Virus record (IMG/VR): IMGVR_UViG_3300044732_000442
Span: 52,116-116,115 of that record
Length of the DNA stretch: 64,000 bases
Direction: 5' to 3' (one strand)
Source of the DNA: a virus
Shown: positions 825 to 54,910 of the stretch, piece by piece
Numbering within the stretch: position 1 is the first letter of the stretch
Layout: each line of letters begins with the position of its first letter
Translations under genes and position numbers: made by a program
The notes under the pieces: generated by a model
What the model saw: the letters and a program-made list of their open reading frames with translations, nothing else
The model's database searches: none
Told to the model about the DNA's origin: nothing

Positions 825-3626
825 ATGAGCAATATTCTTAAAGGTATAATAAACGAAACTAGTCCGCATAATTACGATAGTGATTGGGATTATCAGGATG
901 CTTTAGCACGTAGTGGCAAATCACGTTCTAGCTATCGTTCACAAGAAGATGATACGTCTGATGCTGATATTGCATATTCTAAAAAGATGTATCAATTGGG
1001 TCAACAACAGAAGGCTGCTAAAGAGAAAGCTCAACGTGATAATGACCATGATAGATTAGCAACTGGTACAAATGAAGATGATAGTAATCAAACTAGAATG
1101 AGAATGAATGATTATTACGATTTAGCTGAGGCTCTTCAGGAAAAGCTTAGACAAGCAATTAAGATGGGTAATAACGAACTTGTACATAAATTATCCAAAG
1201 AACGTGCTGAATTAGATGCACGTGTTAAAAAATATGGATTAATGCCTGAATCAGAACAATTAGATGAAATCTCTAATGAGAAATTGGCACAATACAAAAC
1301 AGCTGCCGCCGCCGACGCAGGCAAAGCTGATAAAGAGGGAGACTTTAAGCGTGGTGATAAACGTTTCAGTGGTATTGTTAAAGCAACTAAGAAACAATTT
1401 GCAAATGATACAAAGAAATCTGGTATAGGTCAAGGTATTTCAGAAGATAGATTTAACAGTAAACAAGAAGTTATTAACCATTTTGTTAAAAATGGTAAAA
1501 GTGCGGCAGCAGGTGCGGCAGCATGGGAACGTGGTTATAGAGGTTCAAATCCTAACAAACCAATAGAAATAAAAAAGCCACCTCAAAGAAGTTACCATGA
1601 TGATTTAGATGATAAACGTTATTCTAATACGTTTGAAAATTTAGGTGATCAACTAAAATCACAATCTCTAGAAGCATTACAACAAATCAAACAACAAATT
1701 GAACAAAAACGTGCCGACGAATTAGCTCAATGGGAACAAGATTTTAGAAATAATGTTGCTGGCAAAATGAGAAGCCAACCAATACGTTCACCGGAAGCAA
1801 CACCGGTTGCACAACCTGGTGAGAAGCATTCAGTATTAAAAGCTAGATTAGCACAACTCAATAATGCTATACAAAAACAAGAACTATTGGACAAGTTAAT
1901 TGATAAAATTGACCGTAAAGGTTTGTTGACTCCAGCAATGCAGAACGATGCTGATACTAGAATGCATGTTAAGTATGGTGCAAAAGATAACTATCAATCA
2001 TTGAATAAAAAGTTAGACAATTCTATTTCAATGTTACAGGATAGATTGTATATACGTAAAAAATCAGGTTTAAAAGAATCGCCTAAGAGAATTGATTATG
2101 ATAGTGATACATATGATAATACTAGAATGGGTAGAGAGTATGGCAAGGCTAATCTATTTGTAGATCCGGGGTCAAATGAATTTAAAAAAGAAATACATCC
2201 TGGAGATCCTGAAGGTGAACGTGGTAGACCAAGAAATCTAAAAGGTATTTCAAAAAGGTTACCTGCTGATGCGTTTGGTCGTACTAGCGGAGTTGTTCCT
2301 GATAGTGCAAGACCTAAATCAAAAGAAGATCCTTTTAAAGGAGTAGATGAAGCTGATATGAACCGTAGAGGGTTTTTAGGACAAGCAGGCAAGGCTGCAG
2401 GTGCTGGCGCATTGGCTGCCGCAGGCTTAGGTGGTGCTAGCAATGCTCAAGCATTTAAGGGAACACTTCCTGCTCCTCGTATATCTGAAGATGAGGCTGA
2501 AGCTCAAATTAAAGAATTAAGAAGTAAAGCATATAAAGAGTTAGCAAGTATGATGTGGAATGTATGGCCTAAAATACTAGACACAACATTTGGCGCAAAT
2601 ACTCCTCAAGATAAGCCAGCTACACCCGATGAAATTGGTAAAATGTTAGGCTACAGATTAGCTGAATATGCTGATGACTATAGACAAAAAGTTAGAGCAA
2701 TTAAAATAGCAGCCGGAGTAAGAGATCCTCAAAGTTTAAATAAAACAACTGCCGCAATTTATGTTAATGAACAAGAGATGGATGAGGGTTGGAGTCAAAA
2801 GTACAAGAGTAGTATCAACTGTAGTCATCCTAAAGGTTTTAGTCAAAAAGCTCATTGTGCAGGCAAGAAGAAACACAATGAAAGTATTGACAATGTTATG
2901 GAAATGACATGTCCTGATTGTGGTATGTGTGAAACTCACGTAGACCATGCTAAGTTAGATGAAGCTTGTTGGAAAGGTTATCACAAAGAAGGTAACAAAA
3001 AAATGTTTGGCAAAACATATCCTAACTGTGTAAAGAATACTAACGAAGAACAACTAGATGAAAAATGCTGGGACACACATAAACAAGTTGGAATGAAAAA
3101 CAAAGGTGGACGTATGGTCCCTAACTGTGTGCCTAAAGAAAGTGTAGAAGAACAACATTCACATAGTGAAAGTTGTCCGCATTGTGGTGGCGAGATGGTT
3201 AGTGAAGAACTAATGAATGAAAAGAAAGATGCTTGCTACTACAAAGTAAAGAGCCGTTATAAAGTATGGCCAAGTGCTTATGCATCTGGTGCGTTAGTTA
3301 AGTGCCGCAATAAAGGCGCAAGTAACTGGGGTACAGGCGGAAAGAAAAATGAAAGCTCTATACTAGAAGGTATTGAACAAGCAGACGAAAGTTTACATGA
3401 TTGGTTCAATAAAGAAAAATGGGTTCGCATGGATACTAAAGGAAAGATTAAAGGTCCGTGTGCAAGAGAACCAGGCGAAGGTAAACCAAAATGTTTGCCA
3501 CAAAGTAAAGCACATAGTCTAGGTAAAAAGGGTCGTGCTAGTGCCGCTCAACGTAAGCGTAGAGAAGATCCTAATCCAGAACGTAGTGGCAAAGCCATTA
3601 ATGTTGATACAAAAAAGAAAGATTAA
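825..3626 (+). CDS. Large modular Cys-rich basic protein, putative head-packaged polyprotein
   Basis: I start it at ATG 825 (933 aa, MSNILKGIINETS); an upstream in-frame ATG at 789 lies inside the previous gene. The N-terminus fits a capsid-targeting peptide ending in an I-N-E site. Visible modules are: a QLDEISNEKLAQY segment (about 140) shared with the minus-strand protein at 25544-26917; a twin-arginine-like segment with MNRRGFLG, an Ala/Gly-rich stretch and a SNAQA c-region (about 512-548) directly after GVDE; a WSQKYKSS...CSHPKGFSQKAHC module (about 656); CPDCGMC (about 696); two CW...PNCV modules (about 715 and 748); a DACYYKVKSRYKVWPSAYAS module (about 802); and a basic WFNKEKW...PKCLP C-terminal module resembling DUF5872. 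Nearly every module is preceded by [LMV][DN]E. Function is unknown; DNA association is plausible from the charge. Confidence 0.7.
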   Translation: MSNILKGIINETSPHNYDSDWDYQDALARSGKSRSSYRSQEDDTSDADIAYSKKMYQLGQQQKAAKEKAQRDNDHDRLATGTNEDDSNQTRMRMNDYYDLAEALQEKLRQAIKMGNNELVHKLSKERAELDARVKKYGLMPESEQLDEISNEKLAQYKTAAAADAGKADKEGDFKRGDKRFSGIVKATKKQFANDTKKSGIGQGISEDRFNSKQEVINHFVKNGKSAAAGAAAWERGYRGSNPNKPIEIKKPPQRSYHDDLDDKRYSNTFENLGDQLKSQSLEALQQIKQQIEQKRADELAQWEQDFRNNVAGKMRSQPIRSPEATPVAQPGEKHSVLKARLAQLNNAIQKQELLDKLIDKIDRKGLLTPAMQNDADTRMHVKYGAKDNYQSLNKKLDNSISMLQDRLYIRKKSGLKESPKRIDYDSDTYDNTRMGREYGKANLFVDPGSNEFKKEIHPGDPEGERGRPRNLKGISKRLPADAFGRTSGVVPDSARPKSKEDPFKGVDEADMNRRGFLGQAGKAAGAGALAAAGLGGASNAQAFKGTLPAPRISEDEAEAQIKELRSKAYKELASMMWNVWPKILDTTFGANTPQDKPATPDEIGKMLGYRLAEYADDYRQKVRAIKIAAGVRDPQSLNKTTAAIYVNEQEMDEGWSQKYKSSINCSHPKGFSQKAHCAGKKKHNESIDNVMEMTCPDCGMCETHVDHAKLDEACWKGYHKEGNKKMFGKTYPNCVKNTNEEQLDEKCWDTHKQVGMKNKGGRMVPNCVPKESVEEQHSHSESCPHCGGEMVSEELMNEKKDACYYKVKSRYKVWPSAYASGALVKCRNKGASNWGTGGKKNESSILEGIEQADESLHDWFNKEKWVRMDTKGKIKGPCAREPGEGKPKCLPQSKAHSLGKKGRASAAQRKRREDPNPERSGKAINVDTKKKD

Positions 3627-3635
3627 AGAGTAATT

Positions 3636-4076
3636 ATGTTGTCAGACAATCTAAAAGTATTACTAGCAAGCACACAAAGTTTTGCTATCAAAACACAAAA
3701 CTTTCATTGGAACGTAGAGGGAAGTAACTTTCCACAATATCACGAATTCTTTAATACATTGTACGAAGATGTAAGTGCTACGATTGATCCTATTGCTGAA
3801 TATATAAGAATACTAGGTCACTATACTCCTGGCAGTCTAACACGTTATGCTGAACTAAGTATCATACAAGACCAAATAAAGATTCCACGTGCTGAATTAA
3901 TGTTTGTTGAATCATTACAAGATTGTGAAACAATGCTTCAGTTAGTAACAGCAATGTTTGATGAGGCAGCTGGTGAGAATCAACATGGTATTGAAAACTA
4001 TATGGCTGAACTACAAGACTTGTATGGTAAGAAAGCATGGTTCATTCGTTCTATATTAAAAAGAGAACGTGAATGA
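3636..4076 (+). CDS. Dps/ferritin-like protein
   Basis: The protein is 146 aa, normal for Dps. It carries the Dps signature region with NFHWNVEG, a following H..F...Y and a D..AEYIRILG helix (residues about 20-65), which in the family forms the intersubunit ferroxidase centre; the His and Asp/Glu positions are present. Dps proteins form dodecameric cages that oxidise iron and protect DNA. The gene follows the modular protein by 9 nt and overlaps the GH19 gene by 4 nt (ATGA), so it is co-expressed with likely virion genes. It could be a virion component or act on host iron and oxidative stress; the sequence does not decide this. Confidence 0.8.
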   Translation: MLSDNLKVLLASTQSFAIKTQNFHWNVEGSNFPQYHEFFNTLYEDVSATIDPIAEYIRILGHYTPGSLTRYAELSIIQDQIKIPRAELMFVESLQDCETMLQLVTAMFDEAAGENQHGIENYMAELQDLYGKKAWFIRSILKRERE

Positions 4077-4951
4077 GAGCAACAGAGTTTATTACCGAAC
4101 AAGCAAATCCTAAAGTAGATTTGACTCCAAATTATCCTAACTATCAAGTGTTAGTGGGTGAGTTTGTCGGTATGAAAAAAAACAGAGCAAGATTTTTAAT
4201 TGTAGCCTCTGAACTTAAACCAGGTGTGCGAGAGACTGATAAAATTTTTAGAGCTAGAACTACTAATACACCTATCAGTATTGAGATTGGTAGGGTAAAA
4301 AATCGTAATGTAGTAGATGAAGATTTATCACGTAGAGGCTTCTTAGGTGGTTTAGCTGGTATGGCTGCACTAGGTACTAGAGATACAAAACCTACTGTTA
4401 ATAAAGATACACCAACGGCACCACAAAAAGAACCTACTGTAACTACATTGAGTAACAATCCTCAAATTGAGAGTTTATTACATAAAGCCGCTGTAGCTGC
4501 CGGTATAGTTGGTATTGAATTAGCACAGTTTATGGCTCAAACTAAACATGAATCCTGGAATTTTAGTAGACTAAAAGAAAAGGGTGTAGGTCAAGGCTAT
4601 TTTGCTAAAAAGTATGACCGTCAATATGCACCACGTACTGCTAAGATATTGGGTAATAAGCAGATAGGTGATGGAGAAAAATATCATGGTCGTGGATTTA
4701 TTCAATTGACCGGTCGTGATAACTATCGTATGGCTAGTCAAAGTTTAGGTATTGATTTATTAAATGATCCTGATTTAGCAGAACGACCAGATGTTGCAGC
4801 CAAGATTGCTATATGGTATTGGAAGACACGTGTTAAACCCTATATAAATAACTTCAACGATACGAAGGCAGTAACACAAAAGATTAATCCAGCACTACGT
4901 GGATTACAAGATAGACATGCAAAGTTTATTGACTACAAAAACATATTATAA
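4073..4951 (+). CDS. GH19-type muramidase/endolysin domain protein with capsid-targeting-like N-terminus and Tat-like motif
   Basis: This 292-aa protein starts MRATEFITEQ, resembling a T4 capsid-targeting sequence with an I-T-E cleavage site. A short N-terminal domain follows, then VDEDLSRRGFLGGLAGMAAL (about residues 80-100), a twin-arginine-like signal placed directly behind a V-D-E site. The C-terminal 165 residues are a glycoside hydrolase family 19 (chitinase-like lysozyme) domain, with AQTKHESWNF carrying the probable catalytic Glu, then KYHGRGFIQLTGRDNY and a C-terminal IAIWYWKTRV helix. Such domains cleave peptidoglycan. The gene overlaps the Dps gene by ATGA and lacks an adjacent holin. 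The fusion suggests a virion-delivered muramidase rather than a classical lysis enzyme, which is inference. Confidence 0.82.
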   Translation: MRATEFITEQANPKVDLTPNYPNYQVLVGEFVGMKKNRARFLIVASELKPGVRETDKIFRARTTNTPISIEIGRVKNRNVVDEDLSRRGFLGGLAGMAALGTRDTKPTVNKDTPTAPQKEPTVTTLSNNPQIESLLHKAAVAAGIVGIELAQFMAQTKHESWNFSRLKEKGVGQGYFAKKYDRQYAPRTAKILGNKQIGDGEKYHGRGFIQLTGRDNYRMASQSLGIDLLNDPDLAERPDVAAKIAIWYWKTRVKPYINNFNDTKAVTQKINPALRGLQDRHAKFIDYKNIL

Positions 4952-5494: not shown

Positions 5495-6070
5495 ATGAGA
5501 GCAATAGAACTATACGAATCGGCCGCAAGTGAACTAGCTAAGAAACTTCCTAGCTTAGAGAAACACGACTATAATACCATTGATAAGCTAATGAAAAACA
5601 TAGCAAAGAAACATCGTATAACCGGTGATGCATTGCATGATTTGTTTGTTAGAAAATATCATAAGACTCCAGACAGTTGGATTAAAGATAAACTAGATGA
5701 GAGTGAACAAGAAGATTTGAATAACAATCCTATTGTACAGAAGTTTCTTGCTTGGACAAGTAAGAAGTTGAATTTAGAAAATACTCCAAAGATAGAGTTT
5801 AGTTATGATAGTGATGAAGCACAAGAAGGTCATCATACTGGTAGACACAATCCAGAGACGGGTGAAGTATGGGTTTATTGTGCTAATAGAAATCTAGTAG
5901 ATATATTACGTACTGTGTTCCATGAATTAACTCATGTACGCCAGGGTGAATTAAATATGATTAAGCCGGGTGATAGTTATCCAGGTAGTCCAATAGAAGC
6001 AGAAGCGGATGTAATGGCTGGCAAATATATTAAAATATTTGGTAAAGCACATCCAGAAATATTTCAATAA
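5495..6070 (+). CDS. Zinc metalloprotease-like protein with capsid-targeting-like N-terminus
   Basis: I choose ATG 5495 (191 aa, MRAIELYES) because it gives the capsid-targeting-like N-terminus with an L-Y-E site; a GTG at 5477 adds six residues. A DKLDE-S site follows at about residue 69. The C-terminal domain has FHELTHVRQ (HExxH zinc motif, about residues 147-155) and a downstream EAEADVMAGKY helix that can supply the third ligand, as in gluzincin-type peptidases. Such enzymes cut proteins using Zn2+. Placement beside the GH19 cargo protein and the shared N-terminal tag suggest packaging in the head. The substrate is unknown. Confidence 0.75.
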   Translation: MRAIELYESAASELAKKLPSLEKHDYNTIDKLMKNIAKKHRITGDALHDLFVRKYHKTPDSWIKDKLDESEQEDLNNNPIVQKFLAWTSKKLNLENTPKIEFSYDSDEAQEGHHTGRHNPETGEVWVYCANRNLVDILRTVFHELTHVRQGELNMIKPGDSYPGSPIEAEADVMAGKYIKIFGKAHPEIFQ

Positions 6071-6082: not shown

Positions 6083-7087
6083 ATGTCAATATCAATAACA
6101 GGTGGAATATCATTTAGTGGTGGAGTAGGAATAACTGCCGCACCACCATCAACTCCAACAGCAGGATGGTTTGCAGGTGGGTCTGACGATTCTGGTGTTA
6201 CTTCAACAGTACAACGAATAACATATGCAACTGATACCGCTACTGCAAGTGTTCGTGGACCATTAAACGGCACCAGATATCAAAATGCCGGTACCGGTAA
6301 TTTAAATTATGGATGGTTTGCTGGTTCACGCATTACAGTTGCTATTAGCTCAGTATCAAGGATCACCTATGCAACAGATACTGATACAGCAAGTAATCGC
6401 GGCCCACTAAGTTATAGTGCTTATAGTATTACTGCGAACGGCACAGATACATATGGATGGTTTGCAGGTGGTAAGGATCAATCACCTAGTGATTATTCTA
6501 CAGTATCCAGAATAACATACGCAACTGATACTGGTACTGCAAGTACAAGGGGATCATTATCCGGTTGTTCATATCAAGGTGCAGCATCTACTGACAGCAC
6601 TACATATGGCTGGATTGCAGTAGGATTTGATAACCCTAGTACTATCGGATACCGTAGTATCGTAACTAGGATAACATATGCCACTGATACAGTAACATCA
6701 ACTATTAGAGGTCCATTAAGTTCAACTAGATCATCAATGGCCGGTACTGGTAGTACAAGTTATGGTTGGTTTGCCGGTGGATTTTTCGTCGGCCCGCCGA
6801 CATGGGAGGGAATTTATTATTCTAGGGTAGATCGTATTGATTATGCAAATGATACCGCTACAGCAAGTGTTCGTGGTCCGTTAACTAGAACTAATCAAGG
6901 TCAAGCAGCATCAACCGATGGAACAACATATGGTTGGTTTGGTGGAGGAAATAATTTTTCAACTCCTGCCGGTCCTTTTTCTTCCGTAGACAGAATAACA
7001 TATGCTACTGATACTGTTACTGCGACTGCACGTGGCCCGTTAAGTTCCGGTAGGAGGGTTTTTGCTGCCTCATCCGGTATACAATAA
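6083..7087 (+). CDS. Kelch-like repeat protein, putative tail fibre/adhesin
   Basis: The 334-aa protein consists of a short Gly-rich N-terminus (MSISITGGISFSGGVGITAA) followed by six repeats of about 50 residues. Each has a YGWFAGG-type block, a variable stretch, a RITYATDTATAS block and RGPLS. The Gly pairs and spacing resemble kelch-type beta-propeller blades; six or more such repeats could close a propeller, but this is a prediction. The N-terminal segment recurs in the next four repeat proteins, suggesting a common attachment or trimerisation element. Likely role: distal tail fibre or surface adhesin. It lies 12 nt after the metalloprotease gene with an AAAGAGAATAAA leader. Confidence 0.65.
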   Translation: MSISITGGISFSGGVGITAAPPSTPTAGWFAGGSDDSGVTSTVQRITYATDTATASVRGPLNGTRYQNAGTGNLNYGWFAGSRITVAISSVSRITYATDTDTASNRGPLSYSAYSITANGTDTYGWFAGGKDQSPSDYSTVSRITYATDTGTASTRGSLSGCSYQGAASTDSTTYGWIAVGFDNPSTIGYRSIVTRITYATDTVTSTIRGPLSSTRSSMAGTGSTSYGWFAGGFFVGPPTWEGIYYSRVDRIDYANDTATASVRGPLTRTNQGQAASTDGTTYGWFGGGNNFSTPAGPFSSVDRITYATDTVTATARGPLSSGRRVFAASSGIQ

Positions 7088-7102
7088 TATAAAGGTTAAA
7101 AA

Positions 7103-7600
7103 ATGTCAATAACAATAACAGGTGGAATAACATTAAATGGTGGTGGTTGGACTATTGAGGCACCACCGGCGGGTATTAGGGCTATATTTGGTTATGGAAA
7201 TGATGGATCAGTAACATCAATAACTAATTTAGTATCAACTACTGGTGTTGTTGCCACAGATACCGCAGGGGTAGGGACTGCTAGATATGGATTGGCAGCC
7301 GCAGGATATGGCACAGATAAAGCTATATTTGGATATGGATATGCCTCTCCAAGCGCACGTTCAATCACCAATCTAGTATCAAATACAGGTGTTGTTGCTA
7401 CTGATACAGCAGGTGTAGGTACTGCTAGATATCAAATAGCCGCCGCAGTGTATGGCACAGATAAGGCTATATTTGGTTATGGATACGGGGTTTCTTGGAC
7501 ATCAATAACTAACCTAGTATCAAACACCGGTGTAGTAGCAACAGATACAACAGGTGTTGGCACTGCTAGAGCTGAAATTGCGGCAGCAGCCTACGGTTAA
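7103..7600 (+). CDS. Short propeller-like repeat protein (3 repeats)
   Basis: This 165-aa product has the N-terminus MSITITGGITLNGGGWTI and only three repeats of about 45 residues. Each repeat has an AIFGYG block, a variable loop, TNLVS, TGVVATDT, TGVGTAR, two variable residues and AAA.YG. Three repeats cannot close a usual propeller alone, so it would have to oligomerise, or it is a contracted relative of the six-repeat genes downstream. It is preceded by AAAGGTTAAAA at ribosome-binding distance. Confidence 0.6.
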   Translation: MSITITGGITLNGGGWTIEAPPAGIRAIFGYGNDGSVTSITNLVSTTGVVATDTAGVGTARYGLAAAGYGTDKAIFGYGYASPSARSITNLVSNTGVVATDTAGVGTARYQIAAAVYGTDKAIFGYGYGVSWTSITNLVSNTGVVATDTTGVGTARAEIAAAAYG

Positions 7601-7622
7601 TTATACAATAAAGGTTTTATAA

Positions 7623-8282
7623 ATGTCAATAACAATAACAGGTGGAATAACATTAAATAATGGTGGTTGGACTATAGTTGCACCACCCGCAGGTAATAAA
7701 GCTATCTTTGGATACGGGACTGATGGTATTTCTCTATTAGCAATGACCAATCTAGTATCAAACACTGGTGTAGTAGCCAATGATACTACAGGTGTTGGTA
7801 CTGCTAGATTATACTTAGCAGCCGCCGGCTATGGAACAGATAAAGCTATTTTTGGATATGGGGTTACATACTCTCCAGGTTTCACTCCTTACTCAATTAC
7901 CAATCTTGTATCAAATACAGGTGTTGTTGCTACTGATACAACAGGTGTTGGAACTGCTAGAGGAACATTAGCAGCCGCAACCTATGGCACTGATAAAGCT
8001 ATATTTGGATACGGGTATAACGGAAGTACTAATGTATCAACTACTAATCTAGTATCAAACACAGGTGTTGTTGCTAGTAATACTACAGGTGTTGGAACTA
8101 TTAGAGGAACATTAGCAGCCTCAGGTTATAGCACTGATAAAGCTATATTTGGATATGGATTTGCCAATAGTGGCATAGTGTCAATGACTAACCTAGTATC
8201 AAACACAGGTGTTGTTGCTACTGATACTACAGGTGTTGGAACTGCTAGAGAGGAATTAGCGGCCGCAAGTTACGGATCTTAA
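7623..8282 (+). CDS. Propeller-like repeat protein (4 repeats)
   Basis: The 219-aa protein is built like its neighbours, with the same MSITITGGITLN start and four KAIFGYG repeats. Repeat scaffolds are nearly identical to those of the flanking genes at both protein and DNA level, while the 5-12 residues after FGYG and the pair after TGVGTAR differ in every repeat. This fits a fixed scaffold with variable surface loops. Likely fibre or adhesin; the repeat count may change by recombination. Confidence 0.6.
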   Translation: MSITITGGITLNNGGWTIVAPPAGNKAIFGYGTDGISLLAMTNLVSNTGVVANDTTGVGTARLYLAAAGYGTDKAIFGYGVTYSPGFTPYSITNLVSNTGVVATDTTGVGTARGTLAAATYGTDKAIFGYGYNGSTNVSTTNLVSNTGVVASNTTGVGTIRGTLAASGYSTDKAIFGYGFANSGIVSMTNLVSNTGVVATDTTGVGTAREELAAASYGS

Positions 8283-8294
8283 CATTATGATTAA

Positions 8295-8302
8295 CATAAA
8301 TA
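8295..8302 (+). promoter_or_regulatory. T4-late-like promoter box CATAAATA
   Basis: CATAAATA lies 23 nt before the small gene at 8326 and is part of the palindrome ATAAATACATTTAT. It matches the T4-type late box, as expected before virion genes, but could be chance. Confidence 0.35.
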
Positions 8303-8325
8303 CATTTATTATAAAGGAAAATAAA

Positions 8326-8541
8326 ATGATAGACTTAGAAAACATGCCTGCTCCAACAGCAGAGGAAATTGCACAAGCAAGAGAAAATGCATTTAATGCA
8401 GAACATCCAGCATCATGGACATGGGATGAGGCAGCAACTACATATGTTGCTCCAGTTGCTATTCCAAGTGATGGTTATCCATACTTATGGGATGAAGCTA
8501 CAACTAATTGGGTACCATTTCCAGATTATCCAAGAGAATAA
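8326..8541 (+). CDS. Small W-x-W-D-E repeat protein between fibre genes
   Basis: The start is placed at ATG 8326 (71 aa, MIDLENMPAP) behind AAAGGAAAATAAA; an ATG at 8287 lies ahead of the box and has no ribosome-binding site. The protein has two related segments, SWTWDEAATTYV and YLWDEATTNWV, separated by a proline-rich linker. Small proteins with duplicated WDE..W motifs are common beside structural genes of T4-like phages. A structural or fibre-assembly role is likely but not shown. Confidence 0.6.
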   Translation: MIDLENMPAPTAEEIAQARENAFNAEHPASWTWDEAATTYVAPVAIPSDGYPYLWDEATTNWVPFPDYPRE

Positions 8542-8544
8542 AGA

Positions 8545-9468
8545 ATGTCGGTAACATTTAGTGGTGGCGGTGTAACAATATCAGGCGGAGGATGGACTCT
8601 TAGTCCTCCACCAGGTGGTAGTAAGGCTATCTTTGGATATGGTTATAACGGGACAAATTTGTCAATTACTAATTTAGTATCAAACACAGGTGTTGTTGCC
8701 AATGATACTACAGGTGTCGGTACTGCTAGATTTGGATTGGCGGCCGCAGGATATGGCACAGATAAAGCTATATTTGGATATGGATTCGGAGCTAGTAGAA
8801 CGTCAATAACTAACCTAGTATCAAATACAGGTGTAGTTGCTACTGATACTTCAGGAGTTGGAACTGTTAGAAGTGATTTAGGAGCCGCAGGATATGGTAC
8901 TGATAAAGCTATATTTGGTTATGGATATACAGGTGGTGTCTCTTTTATATCAATAACCAATCTAGTATCAAATACGGGTGTGGTTTCCGGTGATACTGCA
9001 GGTGTTGGTACTGCTAGAGGTTATCTTGCAGCCGCAGGTTATGGCACTGACAAAGCTATTTTTGGATATGGTAACGGTAGCGGATTGCAATCAATAACCA
9101 ATCTAGTATCAAACACGGGGGTTGTTGGCAACAATGTTACAGGTGTAGGTACTGCTAGAGATAGTCTTGCAGCCGCTAGTTATGGTACTGATAAAGCTAT
9201 ATTTGGTTATGGATCTGGACCAACTGCAATAACTAACTTAGTATCAAACACAGGTGTAGTTGCTACTGATACAACAGGTGTTGGAACTGCTAGATATTAT
9301 CTTGCGGCCGCAGGATATGGGGTAGGTACAGCTATATTTGGATACGGTGAGAATGGTAGTATTAATGTATCAATGACCAACTTAGTATCAAACACCGGTG
9401 TAGTTGCTACAGATACTACAGGTGTCGGTACTGCTAGACAATTATTAGCGGCCGCAAGTTACGGTTAA
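8545..9468 (+). CDS. Propeller-like repeat protein (6 repeats)
   Basis: The 307-aa protein has the N-terminus MSVTFSGGGVTISGGGWTL and six FGYG repeats of 43-48 residues. The last repeat reads VGTAIFGYG instead of TDKAIFGYG. Six blades could form a complete propeller. The loop after FGYG differs in each repeat (for example YNGTNL, FGASRT, NGSGLQ) on a near-constant scaffold. Probable tail fibre tip or adhesin, paralogous to the neighbours on both sides. Confidence 0.65.
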   Translation: MSVTFSGGGVTISGGGWTLSPPPGGSKAIFGYGYNGTNLSITNLVSNTGVVANDTTGVGTARFGLAAAGYGTDKAIFGYGFGASRTSITNLVSNTGVVATDTSGVGTVRSDLGAAGYGTDKAIFGYGYTGGVSFISITNLVSNTGVVSGDTAGVGTARGYLAAAGYGTDKAIFGYGNGSGLQSITNLVSNTGVVGNNVTGVGTARDSLAAASYGTDKAIFGYGSGPTAITNLVSNTGVVATDTTGVGTARYYLAAAGYGVGTAIFGYGENGSINVSMTNLVSNTGVVATDTTGVGTARQLLAAASYG

Positions 9469-9490
9469 TTATACAAAGAAAGAATAAAGA

Positions 9491-10417
9491 ATGTCGGTAA
9501 CATTAAACGGTGGTGTAACATTTGGCGGAGGGTTAACTCTTACTGCCGGACCAGCCGGTAATAAAGCTATATTTGGATACGGGTACATTTCAGCAGTAGG
9601 AGAGACTGCAATAACCAATCTAGTAAGTAATACAGGCGTTGTAGCAACTGATACAGCTGGAGTAGGTACTACCAGAACTAACCTAGCGGCGGCTGGGTAT
9701 GGTACTGATAAAGCCTTATTTGGTTATGGAGAAGGAAATGGTACTTATTTATCAATAACTAACAAAGTAAGTAATACAGGTGTGGTGGCTAATGATACTG
9801 CAGGTGTTGGTACTGGTAGAACTGGAATTGCAGCCGCAGGTTACGGGACTGATAAAGCTATATTTGGATATGGCTACGCCTCTGGCGGCAGAACAGCAAT
9901 AACTAACAAAGTATCAAACACCGGAGTAGTTGCTACTGATACGACAGGTGTAGGTACTATTAGAAATGGACTAGCGGCCGCAGGCTATGGAACCGATAAA
10001 GCTATATTTGGATATGGGCAAAATTATCCCACTTATTATTCGTTAACCAATCTAGTAAGTAATACAGGTGTAGTAGCAACTGATACAACTGGTGTTGGAA
10101 CTATTAGAAGTGAGCTAGCGGCAGCAGGTTATGGTACGGATAAGGCTATATTTGGATATGGATATGCTTCCGACAATTCAAGTGTATCAATGACCAACCT
10201 AGTATCAAACACAGGAGTAGTAGCAACAGATACGACTGGTGTTGGTACTGCTAGGTTTTATCTAGCTGCCGCTGTTTACGGCACTGATAAAGCTATATTT
10301 GGATATGGAGTAACAACAGCAGTAACTAATTTAGTATCAAATACAGGTGTGGTTGCTACAAATACTACTGGTGTTGGTACAGCAAGATATTCACTTGCGG
10401 CGGCCGCCTACGGTTAA
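9491..10417 (+). CDS. Propeller-like repeat protein (6 repeats)
   Basis: This 308-aa protein has N-terminus MSVTLNGGVTFGGGLTLTA and six FGYG repeats, the second reading ALFGYG. It is the last gene of the five-member repeat cluster. TNKVS replaces TNLVS in two repeats, so these two may descend from one duplication. Probable tail fibre or adhesin. Confidence 0.65.
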   Translation: MSVTLNGGVTFGGGLTLTAGPAGNKAIFGYGYISAVGETAITNLVSNTGVVATDTAGVGTTRTNLAAAGYGTDKALFGYGEGNGTYLSITNKVSNTGVVANDTAGVGTGRTGIAAAGYGTDKAIFGYGYASGGRTAITNKVSNTGVVATDTTGVGTIRNGLAAAGYGTDKAIFGYGQNYPTYYSLTNLVSNTGVVATDTTGVGTIRSELAAAGYGTDKAIFGYGYASDNSSVSMTNLVSNTGVVATDTTGVGTARFYLAAAVYGTDKAIFGYGVTTAVTNLVSNTGVVATNTTGVGTARYSLAAAAYG

Positions 10418-24717: not shown

Positions 24718-25547
24718 AAAAGATTTTAATTACAGGATGCTCAGGATACATTGGCAGTCATCTATGCAAAATGCTTGAGAATGAATATGAAGTTCATGGC
24801 TTAGATATTGATGAACCACAAGCGCCATTGAATGAGTTTTATCGTTGCGATATCAATAGACAATTTGCTATTCCGGGTGATATTGAATATGATTGTGTAA
24901 TCCATTTAGCGGCATTAGTTCGTGTAGGTGAAAGCGAGCAGATGCCTATCAAATACTATATCACTAACTTGAATGGTACAATGAATGTAGTTAACAAGAT
25001 AAAGACAAAGAACTTTATCTTTGCTAGTACAGGTGCCGCACAAGATTGTGCTAGTGCTTATGGTATCAGCAAACGTGCCGCAGAAGATGTGGTCAGAGAA
25101 TATTGTACAACCCATCGTCAAACACCATATACAATCTTTAGATTTTATAATGTTATTGGAAGCACCGTCGTGGCTCCCACTAACCCCGATGGGTTAATGT
25201 ACAATTTAATTAAAGCTAAAGAGTCGGGTGAGTTTACTATTTACGGTAATGATTATGATGTGTCCGTTATTGATGGTACATGTATACGTGATTATGTACA
25301 TGTTAATGAGATATGTGATGCATTGATGCAAGCAATTGAAAAGCCTAGCAATAGCTTTGAATGCTTAGGACATGGTGTAGGATATACTGTACAGGAGATT
25401 GTTGATTTATTTCAAAAAGTCAATGAGTGTAGTTTTGATGTAAAATACGGCCCAAGGAGAAAGGGTGATTTACCTAGTTCTGTACTAGCTAATGTATCAC
25501 CCTATATGCGTAATCTATACACTATGGAAGATTTATTGAAGGTTTAG
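24714..25547 (+). CDS. NAD-dependent sugar epimerase/dehydratase (GalE-like)
   Basis: A 277-aa extended SDR. The Rossmann motif is GCSGYIGSH (residues about 8-16), followed by D33-type acidic residues (GLDIDE), a VIHLAALVRVGES block, FASTGAA, and the catalytic Tyr-x3-Lys in SAYGISKRAAE. RDYVHVNEICDA and a typical C-terminal substrate domain follow. GalE-type enzymes interconvert UDP-sugars. The exact substrate cannot be told. Convergent with the minus-strand gene that begins 4 nt inside its end. Confidence 0.88.
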   Translation: MKKILITGCSGYIGSHLCKMLENEYEVHGLDIDEPQAPLNEFYRCDINRQFAIPGDIEYDCVIHLAALVRVGESEQMPIKYYITNLNGTMNVVNKIKTKNFIFASTGAAQDCASAYGISKRAAEDVVREYCTTHRQTPYTIFRFYNVIGSTVVAPTNPDGLMYNLIKAKESGEFTIYGNDYDVSVIDGTCIRDYVHVNEICDALMQAIEKPSNSFECLGHGVGYTVQEIVDLFQKVNECSFDVKYGPRRKGDLPSSVLANVSPYMRNLYTMEDLLKV

Positions 25548-26917
25548 TGTTTCAATAATAATGTAGACAATACATCTTGTCTATTAGCACTGATATCACC
25601 CTCACCTGGTGCAATGATAACATTCCATTTCTTAATGTTATTCTTTTGTGGAGTAGCCATCATCTCATTATAATCAATGATACTATCACGTTTTAAATTA
25701 TATTGATTTGCCAATCTGTCTTTTAATTCTTCTAATGCGGCTGCGTCTTTTGGTTGCCAAGCACCATCAGCGGTCTTATCTAACTTACCATCCTTATCCT
25801 TCTTCAATAAGTCATAGAATAACTTACTTGGAACAATACGACTATTCTTAGTTACATCTAGTTGTGGATCTTGTTGTTTAACTTGTTTCTCTTGACTAGT
25901 ACTTGCACCCTCACTCCAATTAACAATAAAGTTACTTGGCTTTTGACCTAAGGCTGCATCCGCTATTTTTGTATAAGCATAGAACTTAACATCAGGATGT
26001 GATGCCGCTAATTTGAATGCCAAATCCATATATTCTGGACTAAAGAAATCACCAGCATCATGCCAACGAATAGTTAGATTGTAACCACCCTTTTGTGCTA
26101 GCTTTTCTTCTTTTGTGATTTCTGCACTTAGTTGATTAAAGAATCCATCTGGATCATTCAATAAGAAAGTAAGAATTCTTCCGTCACTTAACCAAGGACC
26201 TTCAAACTGAACCTTACCACCCTTCATAGCGAAACAATCTACTTTACATGATCCAGCACCCGGACATGTATTAACTACTATGAGTTCGTTTGTACCTTCA
26301 TCTAATGCTATACCGACTAGTGCGGCAAAACCAATGTTATAGAATTGTTCTAGTTCACCATTAGAATGTTTCATCTTCTCATTTTGTTTAAGAAGTTTCT
26401 TTGGGCGAACACCTAATGCTGTTTTGATTTGGTCTGTATCGTAGCGTTTACCTTCTTCATTGTAGTATTTGACTACACTTGAGCGATGGATGTAAGGAAG
26501 TTTATATTTGTCTGTTTTACCCTTTTCACGATTACGAATTCTATCTAAGTAATCATCTAGTTCTTGGCCTTTTAGTTCACGTGTTTGTGCTGGTAGTTTT
26601 GTTGCTTCTGCTACAGGTTGTTGTTTAGTAGCAGGTTCCATTGTAGCACGAATCTTGCCGATAGCTTGACCTATACCAGCGGCTCTTTTTTCAGCCTTTT
26701 TAAATTGATTTTTAGGATCTTGTTTAAGTCTATCTCTAGCATCTGTATTAGATTTTCTAACATAGCTTGCTAATGTTTGAGGAGACAATTCATCTAATTG
26801 TTCATCGGGCAAATCATCAGATTGAGCCAGAAACTGATCCATGCTCATAACTTTGATGCCACCTACAGCACCCGGTAATTTGGGTGTTGCACCCTCAAAT
26901 AGTTCTACAAAATTCAT
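25544..26917 (-). CDS. GP88-like domain protein with capsid-targeting-like N-terminus
   Basis: The 457-aa product starts MNFVELFEGA (L-F-E site, close to the start of T4 Alt). EEQLDELSPQTLASY (about residues 37-52) matches the QLDEIS module of the protein at 825-3626. The main domain has NTCPGAGSCKVDCFAMKGG, IRWHDAGDFFSPEYMDLAF and HPDVKFYAYTK, the pattern of the phage GP88 family (first named in mycobacteriophages), whose activity is not known to me. The clustered Cys suggest metal binding. The ATG overlaps the end of the gene behind it by 4 nt. Packaging in the head is inferred from the N-terminus. Confidence 0.68.
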   Translation of the reverse strand: MNFVELFEGATPKLPGAVGGIKVMSMDQFLAQSDDLPDEQLDELSPQTLASYVRKSNTDARDRLKQDPKNQFKKAEKRAAGIGQAIGKIRATMEPATKQQPVAEATKLPAQTRELKGQELDDYLDRIRNREKGKTDKYKLPYIHRSSVVKYYNEEGKRYDTDQIKTALGVRPKKLLKQNEKMKHSNGELEQFYNIGFAALVGIALDEGTNELIVVNTCPGAGSCKVDCFAMKGGKVQFEGPWLSDGRILTFLLNDPDGFFNQLSAEITKEEKLAQKGGYNLTIRWHDAGDFFSPEYMDLAFKLAASHPDVKFYAYTKIADAALGQKPSNFIVNWSEGASTSQEKQVKQQDPQLDVTKNSRIVPSKLFYDLLKKDKDGKLDKTADGAWQPKDAAALEELKDRLANQYNLKRDSIIDYNEMMATPQKNNIKKWNVIIAPGEGDISANRQDVLSTLLLKH

Positions 26918-46397: not shown

Positions 46398-47603
46398 ATG
46401 TCAACAGAAACAAAATTAAGCCATTGCTCATTCTGCGGTAATCACAAAGATGTAGTAAACAAACTCATTGTAGGGGAAGATGTAGCTATATGTAGCGATT
46501 GTATTGAGTTATGTACTCAATTAATGCACGATGATAAAAATCTTGAAGAAGAAAAGATTGAAAAAGATTATATTAGATTTGATCCAGAAACTATCAAAGA
46601 GTTTTTAGACCAACATATCATTGGGCAAGATAATGCAAAAATGGTACTCAGTGTAGCTATTGCTAATCATTACAAACGTATTAATTCTCCTCCTAAGGAT
46701 CTTGAAATCCAAAAAGGTAATGTATTATTAATCGGACCTACAGGATCTGGTAAAACATTACTAGCAAAGACTGTAGCAAAATATTTAGAAGTGCCCTTTA
46801 TTGTTGCTGATGCTACAAGTTTAACAGAAGCTGGTTACGTAGGTGATGATGTAGAATCCATGATTAGTATGCTATTAAATGCCGCAGGTGGTGATGTTAA
46901 ACTAGCAGAACGTGGTATTGTCTTTGTTGATGAGATTGACAAGATTGCCCGTAAAAGTGAAGGTTCAAGTATCACCCGTGATGTATCAGGTGAAGGTGTT
47001 CAACAAGCATTATTAAAAATGGTTGAAGGAACTACATGTCGTATTCCAGCCGGCGGAGGACGTAAGCATCCCGGTGGCGATATGTTAGAAGTTAATACTA
47101 AAAATATCTTATTCATTGCCGGTGGTGCGTTTGTTGGATTAAAAGATATTGTTAACAATAGGTTAAACGGTACAAGTATTGGCTTTGGGGCTGATATTAA
47201 AGATGCACGTAAAGAGGGTGATTTGTCTATGGTTAGTCCAGATGATTTAACACGATTCGGAATGATTCCTGAATTTATTGGACGATTCACTACTACAGTT
47301 AGTGTAGAGAATTTGACTAAAATTGAAATGGTTCAGGTTCTGACAAAAGTTAAAAATAACTATATTGACCAATATAAGTATTTGCTTAGTTTAGATGACA
47401 TTCAGTTAGAATTTAGTGAAGATGCTATCTCACAACTAGCTGAAAACACAATGAAATTAAAGACCGGGGCACGTGGATTACATACTGAAATTGAAAAGGC
47501 CTTGATGCCACATATGTATAACACTAAGAAATACCGTGAAAATAACATTAAAAAGATAAATATTAATCAGGAGCAAATTTTAAAGCCAAAAGCCGCAATA
47601 TGA
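46398..47603 (+). CDS. clpX: ClpX ATP-dependent unfoldase
   Basis: 401 aa, full length. N-terminal zinc domain CSFCGNHK...CSDCIELC, Walker A GPTGSGKTLLAKT (about 112-124), GYVGDDVE pore loop, Walker B FVDEIDKIARK, sensor and arginine regions (FIGRF, GARGLHTEIEKAL), and an SIGFGAD loop matching the ClpP-docking IGF tripeptide. It should unfold substrates and dock on ClpP, which the phage also encodes at 54317. The last 4 nt overlap rpsU. Confidence 0.95.
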   Translation: MSTETKLSHCSFCGNHKDVVNKLIVGEDVAICSDCIELCTQLMHDDKNLEEEKIEKDYIRFDPETIKEFLDQHIIGQDNAKMVLSVAIANHYKRINSPPKDLEIQKGNVLLIGPTGSGKTLLAKTVAKYLEVPFIVADATSLTEAGYVGDDVESMISMLLNAAGGDVKLAERGIVFVDEIDKIARKSEGSSITRDVSGEGVQQALLKMVEGTTCRIPAGGGRKHPGGDMLEVNTKNILFIAGGAFVGLKDIVNNRLNGTSIGFGADIKDARKEGDLSMVSPDDLTRFGMIPEFIGRFTTTVSVENLTKIEMVQVLTKVKNNYIDQYKYLLSLDDIQLEFSEDAISQLAENTMKLKTGARGLHTEIEKALMPHMYNTKKYRENNIKKININQEQILKPKAAI

Positions 47604-47818
47604 TTAGAGGACGTAAAGTTTTAGTTAATGACGGAAATACAGAAAAGGCCCTACGTAAATTTAAAAAATTGATTACGGATTATGGTACTTTACAAGAAGT
47701 CCGTGACCGACAAGAATTTGTGAAACCTACTGTTAAACGTAAACTAGCTAAAAGTCAGGCCAAAAGACGTTGGGACAAACATTTGCGTGAACAAACTTTA
47801 CCTAAAAAGTTGTTCTAA
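47600..47818 (+). CDS. rpsU: Ribosomal protein bS21
   Basis: 72 aa, the family's length. The bS21 plan is clear: N-terminal strand, then EKALRKFKKLITDYGTLQEV, RQEFVKPTVKRKLAKSQAKR and a basic helical end. bS21 sits near the anti-Shine-Dalgarno sequence of the 30S subunit. Phage copies are thought to replace host S21 and bias initiation. Translationally coupled to clpX through ATGA. Confidence 0.9.
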   Translation: MIRGRKVLVNDGNTEKALRKFKKLITDYGTLQEVRDRQEFVKPTVKRKLAKSQAKRRWDKHLREQTLPKKLF

Positions 47819-47843
47819 AATACTAGGATTTGTCTTAGGTATA

Positions 47844-47850
47844 CTAAATA
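47844..47850 (+). promoter_or_regulatory. CTAAATA box, 5 nt before HNH gene ATG
   Basis: CTAAATA-GAAGT-ATG opens the homing-type endonuclease gene, with the same spacing as other boxes near starts. Confidence 0.33.
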
Positions 47851-47855
47851 GAAGT

Positions 47856-48599
47856 ATGCTTAAAATTAATTCATCATTTAATACCTACCAAAATTGTGCT
47901 AGTTGTAATAATATTATTACAGTAAAAACATATGCTCATCCAAATAATCCTAATTACGGCAAACCAATTGTTGCCCACAAAACAAAAATAACATGTAGTC
48001 GTAAATGCCATAAAGAATGGCAAAAAACAATTTCTTGGGAAGAACGAATAGGATTAGAAAGAGCCAATCAAATTAGAGAAGAACGACGGGAACAACTGTT
48101 GTCCAATAACCCTAGTACTGATCCTGAGGTGGCTAAAAAAATAGGTACCAGCTTGTCAGACTATCTAACAAAAAATCCAGAAGTTAGGCAAGGGAAAAAT
48201 AATCCATTCTTCGGTCATTCACACGATCCTGCCCAAATTGAAAAATGGAAAAACGATAAATCAGGTAAGTGGTCGTACTCACCTGAACAAAAAGAAAAAC
48301 AAACTAAGAATACCCCAAAGAAAGAATCTCATCCAAATTGGAAAGGCGGAATTTCAAATGGCGAATATGGTCCGGAATTTAATAAAGAACTTAAAGAAAG
48401 TATTAAAAAAGATTACAGATATGTTTGTCAGATGTGCAATGCACCTAAGGTTAAATTAGATGTACATCATATTGATTACAATAAGAAAAACAATGCCAAT
48501 AACAATCTTATTCCGTTATGTAAACATTGTCACGCAAAAACAAATTTCAAGAGAGAAGAATGGGAAACTCTTTTTAAGAATAGGTTGAATAAAAATTAA
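47856..48599 (+). CDS. HNH homing-type endonuclease
   Basis: 247 aa from ATG 47856; an ATG at 47787 lies inside rpsU. An N-terminal Cys pair region (CASCNN...CSRKCHKEW) looks like a zinc element, followed by a NUMOD-like NNPFFGHSHDP segment and a C-terminal HNH: CQMCNAP, LDVHHIDYNKKNNANNNLIP, LCKHCHAKT. Free-standing HNH enzymes of this kind spread between phages. It separates rpsU from dnaK. Confidence 0.88.
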   Translation: MLKINSSFNTYQNCASCNNIITVKTYAHPNNPNYGKPIVAHKTKITCSRKCHKEWQKTISWEERIGLERANQIREERREQLLSNNPSTDPEVAKKIGTSLSDYLTKNPEVRQGKNNPFFGHSHDPAQIEKWKNDKSGKWSYSPEQKEKQTKNTPKKESHPNWKGGISNGEYGPEFNKELKESIKKDYRYVCQMCNAPKVKLDVHHIDYNKKNNANNNLIPLCKHCHAKTNFKREEWETLFKNRLNKN

Positions 48600-48613
48600 A
48601 AATAAAGTATAAT
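48585..48613 (+). promoter_or_regulatory. Sigma70 promoter for dnaK
   Basis: TTGAAT, 17-nt spacer, TATAAT at the end of the HNH gene, about 75 nt before dnaK. A GATAAATA box follows at 48616. Confidence 0.65.
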
Positions 48614-48615
48614 AT

Positions 48616-48623
48616 GATAAATA
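48616..48623 (+). promoter_or_regulatory. T4-late-like box GATAAATA before dnaK leader
   Basis: GATAAATA 65 nt before the dnaK ATG, directly after the sigma70-like -10 box; dual early/late control is possible. Confidence 0.35.
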
Positions 48624-48625
48624 AA

Positions 48626-48688
48626 GATGTAAGTGCTGAATGAGTCAGGCTTACTAATTATACATCTTGCTTATTAAAGGAGAAAAAT
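48626..48688 (+). promoter_or_regulatory. Structured dnaK leader
   Basis: Two mutually exclusive pairings are visible: GTAAG with CTTAC, and GATGTA with TACATC. The latter ends next to CTTGCTTATTA and the AAAGGAG site. The CTTGCTTATTA string and GGAGAAAAA recur in the hsp20 leader. A shared regulatory or thermosensor role is possible. Confidence 0.4.
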
Positions 48689-50587
48689 ATGTCAAAGCAT
48701 GTTATTGGCGTGGACTTAGGAACAACTAATTCCTGTGTAGCCATTATTGAAAACGGAATCCCCAAAATAATTGAAAATTCAGAAGGTGCTAGAACTACAC
48801 CCTCAATCGTTGCCTATGCTAATGATGAGATTCTAGTAGGTGCTAGTGCTAAACGTCAATCAGTTACAAATCCAAAGAATACAATCTATGCTGCCAAGCG
48901 ATTAATTGGACGTAAGTTTACAGAACAAGCTGTACAAAAAGATATTGACCTTATGCCTTATTCTATTGTCAAAGCTGATAATGGTGATGCATGGGTAGAA
49001 GTAAATGGACAAAAGCTAGCCCCACCTCAGATTAGTGCTGAGGTATTACGTAAAATGAAAAAGACTGCGGAAGACTATTTGGGTACTTCAGTTACTCAGG
49101 CAGTTATCACAGTACCAGCTTACTTCAATGACAGTCAACGTCAAGCTACTAAAGATGCAGGACGCATTGCTGGTCTAGAAGTATTACGTATTATCAACGA
49201 ACCAACAGCGGCTGCTCTAGCTTATGGTGTAGATAAACAAGATAAGAAGGATCGTAAGATTGCGGTATATGACTTGGGTGGTGGTACATTTGACGTATCT
49301 ATCATTGAACTAGCAGACGTTGAAGGTGAAACTCAAATTGAAGTACTATCAACAAATGGTGATACATTCTTGGGCGGTGAAGACTTTGACCAACGTATTA
49401 TGGATTTCTTAGTTGATGAGTTTAAGAAAGACAATGCGGTTGATCTTAAGAAAGATATGTTAGCATTGCAACGCTTGAAAGAAGCGGCTGAGAAAGCTAA
49501 GATTGAATTGTCCAGTTCAGCACAAACAGATGTTAACTTACCATATATTACTGCTGATGCTAATGGTCCTAAACATTTGAACGTTAAGTTAAGTCGTGCT
49601 AAATTAGAATCATTAGTTGATGAATTAATTCAACGTAGTATCAAACCATGTAAACAAGCCATGACAGATGCAGGTGTTTCAACATCTGATATTGATGAGG
49701 TTATACTTGTTGGTGGTATGACACGTATGCCTAAAGTACAGGAAACTGTTGAAGCATTGTTTGGCAAAGCACCACGTAAAGATGTTAATCCAGATGAAGC
49801 AGTGGCAGCAGGTGCCGCACTTCAAGGTAGCGTATTAGCCGGTGAACGTACTGATGTATTGTTATTAGATGTAACACCATTAAGTTTAGGTATTGAAACA
49901 TCCGGTGGTGTATTTACTAAGTTGATTAAGAAGAATACAACTATTCCAACTAAACATAGTCAAGTGTTCAGTACAGCAGATGATAATCAACCGGCAGTAA
50001 CTATTAAAGTTGCACAAGGTGAGCGTGATTTGTTTACATATAACAAGTTATTAGGTGAGTTTAATTTAGAAGGAATTCCGCCAGCAATGCGTGGAGTACC
50101 ACAAATTGAAGTTACATTAGATGTTGATGCTAATGGTATTCTTAATGTAAGTGCCAAAGACAAAGGTACAGGCAAAGAGAATAAGATTACTATTAAATCT
50201 GATTCAGGATTGACTGAACGTGAAATTCAACAGATGGTTAATGATGCTGAAGAAAATGCAGAAGCTGATGCTAAACAAGTTAAATTCATTCAAGCAAAAA
50301 ATACTGGTGAATCAACATTAAACAGTTTCCGTAAAGATTATGAGAAGTACGGTGACAAAGTAACAGCAGAAGAAAAAGAAAAAGTATCAAATGCTATTGA
50401 TGCATTAGAAGTTGCGTTAGCCGGAACTGAAGTTGAAGAAATTGACAACAAAGTTAAAGAACTATATGAAGCTATTGGTCCTATTACTAAACTCAAGTAT
50501 GAAGAGGAACAAAAAGCCAAAGAAACATCTCAATCACAAAAGTCTGATGACAATGTGGTAGATGCAGAGGTTAAGGAAGCACCTTAA
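48689..50587 (+). CDS. dnaK: DnaK (Hsp70) chaperone
   Basis: 632 aa, complete. ATPase domain: [15 protein letters not shown] at the start, [51 protein letters not shown]. Substrate domain with [14 protein letters not shown] and the lid, ending in an acidic [13 protein letters not shown] tail like proteobacterial DnaK. No DnaJ or GrpE lies in the window, so it would use host partners. Folding of capsid or fibre proteins, or protection under stress, is likely. Confidence 0.97.
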
Positions 50588-50597
50588 TCTAAACAAA

Positions 50598-50625
50598 ATC
50601 GGGTGCCGCATTCGGCGGGCCCGAT
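50598..50625 (+). promoter_or_regulatory. GC-rich hairpin between dnaK and hsp20
   Basis: ATCGGG/CCCGAT enclosing GCCG-CATT-CGGC, with small bulges. No T-run follows, so termination is unlikely. It may be a leader structure for hsp20 or an RNA-processing or stability element. Confidence 0.5.
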
Positions 50626-50657
50626 ATCGTCATAAACTTGCTTATTAGGAGAAAAAC

Positions 50658-51107
50658 ATGACAACAAAAACATTAACCCTTCGTGCCATTGATATTCCAT
50701 CAATACACAAATTCGGAATCGGATTTGATTCTATGTTAGATGAATTAATGCGTCTAACAGCTGGACAAACAAACACCAACTATCCACCTCACAATGTTAT
50801 TAAAACAGGTGATGAGACTGTAACTATAGAGGTTGCTGTAGCTGGTTTCGGAGAAAATGATTTAGATATAAAATTAGATAACAATGCTTTAATTATATCC
50901 GGGTCCAAAGCACGTGAAGAAATGCTTAACTATGAATATTTACATAGAGGATTAAGCAGTAGAGATTTCACACAAACATTCCCATTAGCTGAACATGTTG
51001 AAGTAATACATGCTGAAGTAAAGAACGGAATTCTTTCTGTTTATTTAGAACGTAAAGTTCCAGAAGAAAAGAAACCAAAATCTATTGCAATTACTTATAC
51101 TAAGTGA
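50658..51107 (+). CDS. Small heat-shock protein (Hsp20/alpha-crystallin)
   Basis: 149 aa. N-terminal arm with FGIGFDSMLDELMRL, then the alpha-crystallin domain: YPPHNVIKTGDETVTIEVAV, FGENDLDIKLDNNALIISG, FTQTFPLAEHVEV and the GILSVYLER strand, with a short C-terminal extension (KSIAITYTK, I-x-I). Holdase for unfolding proteins. It shares leader sequence with dnaK, so the two are probably regulated alike. Confidence 0.92.
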   Translation: MTTKTLTLRAIDIPSIHKFGIGFDSMLDELMRLTAGQTNTNYPPHNVIKTGDETVTIEVAVAGFGENDLDIKLDNNALIISGSKAREEMLNYEYLHRGLSSRDFTQTFPLAEHVEVIHAEVKNGILSVYLERKVPEEKKPKSIAITYTK

Positions 51108-54316: not shown

Positions 54317-54910
54317 ATGAGCTTAGTCCCAATGGTATTAGAACAAACAAGTAAAGGCGAACGTAGTTATGACATTTATAGTCGTTTACTACGTGACCGT
54401 GTTATTTTACTTGAAGGTGAGGTACATGACCAAATGGCAAATCTAATCGTTGCACAACTACTATATTTGGAAAGTGAAAATTCAGATAAGGACATCAGTC
54501 TATATGTCAATAGCCCGGGCGGATCAGTTACTGCTGGTATGGCAATATATGATTGTATGCAGTTTATCAGACCTGACGTACAAACTATTGTTATGGGTCA
54601 AGCTTGTTCAATGGGTAGTTTGTTAGGTCAAGCTGGTGCAAAAGGTAAACGAATGATTCTTCCTAACGCACGACATATGATTCATCAACCAAGTGGTGGA
54701 GCACGTGGTCAGGCCACTGATATGGAAATTCAAGTTAAAGAGATTTTGGCTATGAAAAAGTCTCTAACACAAATCTATGTTGACCACAATAGTGCTGGAA
54801 AGTCGTTTGAGGAACTTGCAAAAGACATGGAACGTGACTTTTTTATGAGTGCTAACGAGGCCGTAGCGTATGGCCTAGCTGATAGTGTGTTGCAAAAACG
54901 CAACAGTTAA
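54317..54910 (+). CDS. clpP: ClpP serine protease
   Basis: 197 aa, complete. [20 protein letters not shown], the nucleophile in QACSMGSLL (about Ser 98), the His in [11 protein letters not shown] (about 123) and the Asp in [12 protein letters not shown] (about 172) form the triad. It would form a tetradecamer driven by the phage ClpX, whose docking loop is present. Leader AAGGAAACAAT. The gap before it holds a divergent promoter region. Confidence 0.96.

Follow-up and report, generated by a model that had tools for sequence, protein, structure and literature searches.

What does a twin-arginine (Tat) export signal do in the middle of a phage protein? The question is raised by two genes within the window, i.e., the whole 64,000-nucleotide stretch analysed, which comprises positions 52116-116115 of a 116,115-base IMG/VR virus record and encodes T4-like replication and structural genes. 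The original prediction held that both gene products carry a Tat-like segment immediately behind a VDE motif, that cleavage at this motif exposes the signal, and that the mature fragment, once delivered into the cytoplasm, is exported by the host Tat system. Both segments proved to be present as described. Moreover, comparison with relatives, collected from IMG/VR as homologues of the GH19 protein and by pattern scans, confirms at the sequence level that the combination of a capsid-targeting sequence (CTS), a [VIL]xE site, and a Tat segment in the window proteins is part of a recurrent design. The reading preferred here, to which we assign a probability of roughly 0.6, is that these proteins are precursors of effectors packaged in the heads of large T4-like phages: the CTS would direct packaging, an S77 prohead protease would unmask the Tat signal, and the injected product would be exported by the host Tat system.

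Tat segments in two proteins of the window

The first gene (825-3626, plus strand) encodes a 933-amino-acid mosaic protein with 21 [ILVM]xE sites. It is probably a head polyprotein of shuffled cassettes, and its modules recur in relatives in a changed order. The predicted prohead-protease site before the Tat segment is GVDE (2340-2351, plus strand; E509 is encoded by 2349-2351), with LKE/ or VDE/ at the equivalent junction of the orthologues L289 and L293 (slashes mark cut sites, predicted unless stated otherwise, or segment ends). The site is directly followed by the Tat signal cassette (residues 510-543; 2352-2453, plus strand), and the local order reads PFKGVDE/ADMNRRGFLGQAGKAAGAGALAAAGLGGASNAQA/FKG. 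The cassette begins with ADMNRRGFLG, terminates in an AxA signal-peptidase site (SNAQA), and is matched above cut-off by the curated Tat model TIGR01409 (19.6 bits, E 2e-4). Behind it lies the predicted exported cargo (residues 544-649; 2454-2771, plus strand), which reaches the next sites, VNE/ and MDE/. A single-sequence AlphaFold2 model of this cargo, which is moderately confident only, predicts two long helices (pLDDT 82-92 for most helix residues; pTM 0.47).

The second gene (4073-4951, plus strand) encodes a 292-amino-acid protein with the order MRATEFITE/QANPK...KNRNVVDE/DLSRRGFLGGLAGMAALG, followed by a GH19 domain. The predicted prohead-protease site, VVDE (4310-4321, plus strand), ends at residue 83 (4319-4321) and is represented by VLE/ or VVE/ in relatives. 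The Tat segment (4322-4375, plus strand) opens with DLSRRGFLGG, which shows only synonymous changes in most relatives; it is unmatched by Tat HMMs, and an AxA motif was not found after its core, though many relatives have one (e.g., VAQA/K). The assignment of the GH19 domain (about residues 132-292; 4466-4951, plus strand) is well supported by the match to PF00182 (61 bits) and by matches to the phage endolysin structures 9ms7 and 4ok7 and to the putative phage protein 7r6s. A Dps-like protein without a CTS is encoded between the two Tat-bearing genes (3636-4076).

Predicted packaging tags at the N-termini

New with respect to the original prediction is the beginning of the two proteins. The GH19 protein opens with a T4-type CTS, MRATEFITE/ (4073-4099, plus strand), and the 825-3626 protein with a CTS-like N-terminus, MSNILKGIINE (825-857, plus strand), which ends at an INE/ site and is kept in L289 and L293. 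The T4 tag, which MRATEFITE resembles, has a sequence close to MKTYQEFIAE. In T4, the CTS is a short N-terminal tag by which internal proteins enter the prohead; gp21 then cleaves it off (PMC7411985, PMC3012670).

The MRAxEFIxE start is shared with more than 80 other phage proteins. A scan of IMG/VR for this pattern yielded at least 91 distinct proteins; among the matches listed, the sequence following the tag is highly diverse and a Tat segment is present in only 1 of 91. Tat is thus a special cargo label, separate from the CTS. The window's record itself encodes about 10 proteins with CTS-like starts, such as MRFTEIISE (26914, minus strand), MNFVELFE (25544, minus strand), and MRAIELYE (5495, plus strand). 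The last of these proteins (5495-6070) also contains a zinc-peptidase-like motif, HELTHVRQGE, and its listed GTG start is probably six codons too early.

Spacing between the site and the twin arginine

A scan for the Tat core RRGFLG[AG][LIVMF][AG][AG], which sets no upstream requirement, returned 50 distinct proteins. An [ILV]xE motif ending 2-4 residues before the RR was found in 24 of 24 proteins with a CTS vs 2 of 26 without one (Fisher p = 2.7e-12), a comparison that is not free of dependence since the first count includes proteins whose CTS and site share one and the same glutamate. Internal segments were therefore counted separately: the site occurs in 14 of 19 independent upstream contexts vs 6.5% in the background (binomial 2e-13), a count that is slightly inflated by a few loci drawn from an E-requiring pattern and that gives an unchanged picture without them. 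Chance RRGFLG matches without a hydrophobic tail (the L047 group, L059, and L071) were set aside as background. The two proteins with a site that were scored as CTS-less are L120 and L068; the latter starts with MRATDFIIE, which falls outside the CTS pattern used, and both phages look like the same kind as the CTS-bearing ones. The N-terminus of L120 resembles a PA5oct virion protein detected by mass spectrometry, an indirect hint that proteins of this type may occur in virions. Most of the remaining CTS-less proteins have a Tat signal of the ordinary N-terminal kind (M plus 0-6 residues). On these counts, the position of the Tat segment behind [ILV]xE is more than chance.

Layouts, cargo, and cassette shuffling in relatives

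The relatives follow two layouts. In layout (a), found in about 10 distinct relatives, the CTS is joined directly to the Tat segment and the RR lies at residue 12-13; examples are MRATEFISE/DISRRGFLGG (L012), MRASEIIAE/DLTRRGFLG (L014-L019), MRSYEFISE/IDRRGFLGALGAGAMAAAGVPAAQA/G (L026), MRANEFVTE/DMSRRGFLGALGAGAMAASGVAQA/K (L056), and MLIKEVTE/DLSRRGFLGALGAAGAAAVAPGMAQA/K (L051). In layout (b), the CTS is followed by at least one module, an [ILV]xE/Tat junction, and the cargo (L050, L078, L079, L084, L039, L054, and L041); in many relatives with an internal Tat segment, the RR is found at residues 86-629. Deviating forms are L080, which has TNE/, and L117, which has VEE seven residues before the RR. 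TIGR01409 or PF10518 also matches L051, L078, L079, L120, and L041, and an AxA motif follows the Tat core in most relatives. The commonest cargo behind the Tat segment is GH19; an M48 peptidase is found in L126 and L083, and a GP88-like domain in L041. The latter protein is homologous to the product of window 25544-26917, which has no Tat segment, so a given cargo may occur with or without the label. One 331-kb phage record, which has an S77 protease, encodes two adjoining CTS-like proteins with one Tat cassette apiece (L148:1007-2895).

The family of the 825-3626 protein points to shuffling of cassettes. In L289, KKSGLKE/ leads straight into the Tat cassette with its cargo, whereas in the window protein this site lies about 90 residues upstream of the cassette and has another sequence behind it. 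In L293, a different sequence, ending in VDE/, precedes the cassette. Each time, the junction is a protease site by sequence. Between these relatives, the cassette differs by 8-10 synonymous vs 2-4 replacement codon differences. A Tat segment was not found in the orthologues L061 and L074, in which the module order differs.

The prohead protease

An S77 (gp21-type) protease, Pfam PF03420, is encoded in all seven family-bearing records above 150 kb that were tested, five of them with Tat (G017, G018, G019, G032, and G036) and two with the family but no Tat (G008 and G012). Where the neighbourhood was examined, its gene adjoins gp22- and gp23-like genes. In G017-G019, the N-termini of the major capsid proteins carry LAE/ and LKE/ at the expected place, which presumably are the capsid-protein cut sites. 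PF03420 was unmatched in the shorter records, including the window's own, all of which are fragments, so that this negative is uninformative; in the 116-kb fragment that holds the window, the portal-protease-capsid region is absent.

A model of signal unmasking, and its alternatives

From T4 knowledge and the sequence resemblance, the CTS would carry the precursor into the prohead core. There, the S77 protease would cut after [ILV]xE, remove the CTS together with any upstream modules, and create a new N-terminus 2-4 residues before the twin-arginine motif. On ejection, the trimmed protein would enter the next cell together with the DNA; host TatABC there would export it in folded form to the periplasm, and signal peptidase I would trim it where AxA is present. 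In the periplasm, GH19 would act on peptidoglycan; in relatives, the delivered cargo would be an M48 peptidase or GP88-like. With the signal hidden until maturation, the producing cell would not export the wall hydrolase. As to the early role of a few exported GH19 molecules, our first guess is local wall remodelling beneath the attached phage.

This model is preferred because of the CTS, the fixed E-to-RR spacing, the shuffling at the glutamate, the presence of S77 in like genomes, and the types of cargo, which together lend strong comparative support to the idea that a protease exposes the signal and that the injected fragment is exported. Also in its favour is that, even with Tat replaced, GH19 relatives retain the CTS, the site, and a segment of membrane-targeting type. 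Against it stand the window's GH19 Tat segment, which has no AxA and is missed by Tat HMMs, the Tat-less orthologues L061 and L074, the scarcity of Tat among MRAxEFIxE proteins (1 of 91), the deviating L080 and L117, and the fragmentary record of the window. The architecture of CTS, site, Tat segment, and cargo is well supported in the sequences compared, while cleavage, ejection, Tat export, and the benefit to the phage are what we infer from it. The further claim that the segment can serve as a signal only after removal of what precedes it goes too far for N-terminal extensions as short as about nine residues, as in the CTS-Tat fusions of several relatives. Tat tolerates some N-terminal extension, and export in the producing cell is possible for layout (a), because a 12-residue n-region is normal for Tat. 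For the internal segments, such export would need processing or an unusual tolerance of N-terminal extensions.

In one alternative explanation, nothing is packaged: GH19, a common endolysin domain, would be a Tat-exported endolysin for late lysis, with the CTS as a tolerated n-region of normal length in the direct fusions. However, this is quite unlikely given the RR at residues 86-629 in many relatives, the fact that the CTS is common to all of them and also to many unrelated proteins, and the non-lytic cargos (GP88-like, M48) that bear the same Tat cassette. It is also unlikely, if less so, that the proteins are packaged and cut but that the RR-hydrophobic segment serves as a membrane anchor or inserting helix at ejection, or as a portal or tail contact, with no Tat export. 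Some GH19 relatives have an RR-less hydrophobic segment at the same place (GWKDWVAGGAMALGALG), and the window GH19 protein lacks AxA; yet RRGFLG fits the Tat consensus S/T-R-R-x-F-L-K with G replacing K (PMC3383694), several members pass the cut-off of Tat HMMs, most have AxA after the core, and the alternative segment of L034 looks like a Sec signal.

Two further explanations were considered. Bacterial Tat proteins might have been captured in frame behind CTS modules, leaving the signal as an unused fossil. Cassettes do move between proteins, and Met is common two residues before the RR, like an old start codon; nevertheless, we regard disuse as very unlikely, as the segment changes mostly at synonymous positions, stands at a constant distance from the site in many different contexts, and accompanies more than one type of cargo. 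An internal translation start, which would yield an additional product that begins with the Tat signal, is highly improbable and was rejected because the start is not conserved. The 825-3626 gene does have an ATG (2358) before NRRGFLG, with GGAG 14 bases upstream, but GGAG is not kept in L289 and L293, the GH19 gene has TTA (Leu) at this place, and L or I occurs there in many relatives; moreover, such a start leaves the [ILV]xE site unexplained.

Other possible signals behind protease-type sites

The unmasking model can be extended to segments other than Tat. Tat-less GH19 relatives keep the CTS and the [VIL]xE/ site, which is then followed by another hydrophobic segment; in L027, E/GWKDWVAGGAMALGALGANA stands at the Tat position. 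L034:3224-4504 has ISE/SFKKKAAGLALGALSLGAQATA/P, followed by LysM-like sequence and GH19, and SFKKKAAGLALGALSLGAQATA looks like a Sec signal. In the same record, a Sec-like signal peptide, GLGKHVAGAALAGAMALGGAGAHAQ, lies behind GVAE/ (L034:3-1379). These Sec-like signals behind protease-type sites suggest that several export labels exist, Tat among them. It is possible, though we hold this only tentatively, that prohead proteolysis is a general means of address-labelling CTS-led polyproteins, in which interchangeable signals (Tat, Sec-like, and perhaps lipoprotein) would sort injected effectors among cytoplasm, membrane, and periplasm. A possible lipoprotein signal behind a protease-type site, NVDE/DWKSSLGAAAAAACIAGTPGCATTN, occurs at about residue 53 of L060:1-3375. 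In the GH19 relatives L020-L025 and L027-L033, Tat is replaced by [VIL][DE]E/GWK[DE] and a hydrophobic stretch; an ejection protein of SPN3US reads AQE/GWKETLK at its reported cut site (PMC7411985).

Relation to known systems

Known T4 internal proteins act in the cytoplasm, and we know of no T4 ejection protein with an export signal exposed by the gp21 cut. T4 IPI-III and Alt share with the present proteins a short N-terminal CTS ending in E, S77-protease cleavage, and ejection with the DNA, whereas packaging, cleavage, and ejection are predicted here. Signal-peptide and SAR endolysins are likewise phage muralytic enzymes using a host export route, but they take the Sec route by an N-terminal signal and do so in the producing cell, for lysis. 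The SufI Tat signal starts with MSLSRRQFIQ; bacterial Tat substrates share the twin-arginine motif, the weakly hydrophobic Ala/Gly-rich core, and AxA, whereas the signal of the present proteins lies internally or follows a packaging tag and would depend on a viral protease.

Ejection proteins bearing a CTS and head-packaged multidomain proteins with lysozyme domains have already been described (PMC3012670, PMC5512222, PMC5694885). Polyvalent proteins of phages and conjugative elements (Iyer et al. 2017, PMC5512222) are, like the present ones, multidomain and head-packaged, sometimes contain lysozyme domains, and need processing. This is credited to an embedded metallopeptidase, a type that Pfam did not reveal in the window proteins, and the lysozyme is assigned a role in entry; neither 'signal peptide' nor 'twin-arginine' is mentioned in that paper. 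The ejection proteins of the giant phages SPN3US and phiKZ (PMC5694885) also have long N-terminal propeptides removed by the prohead protease after xxE; however, no export signal behind the site is described, and 'signal peptide' is absent from that paper as well. No earlier account of a prohead protease that unmasks an export signal was found in the literature searched, with most subscription journals outside its scope. In a 2026 screen in Klebsiella, tatC was linked to some phages, one of them a drexlervirus, and SignalP-6.0 found no phage Tat signal (PMC13412088); a direct link to the present phages is not claimed.

No match in cultured phages was obtained by megablast of the window or by tblastn of a CTS-Tat peptide, in which the low-complexity filter may hide matches. 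GH19 matches in cultured phages begin behind the signal; those in the cyanophages S-CREM2 and S-B68 were set aside, as baseplate genes surround them and they probably encode tail proteins. For the M48 and GP88-like cargo, no cultured isolate with a Tat signal was found.

If the model is true, head maturation not only trims the capsid but arms injected proteins with a host export signal, and delivery occurs in two stages, from the virus head to the cytoplasm and from there to the periplasm, so that folded enzymes reach the wall after DNA entry. Predictors of N-terminal signals run on annotated genes would miss such internal signals. The claim is directly testable, and the design could also serve as a means of directing cargo to the periplasm.

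Further genes of the window

A D-alanyl-D-alanine carboxypeptidase-like protein (62687-63418) has an ordinary N-terminal Sec-like signal; the phage therefore also has a conventional periplasmic wall enzyme. Homologues of ClpX, DnaK, a small heat-shock protein, and ClpP are encoded at 46398-51107 and 54317-54910. At 6083-10417 lies a row of adjoining paralogues with short repeats (TNLVSNTGVVATDTTGVGTAR; YGWFAGG), which are probably virion surface proteins.
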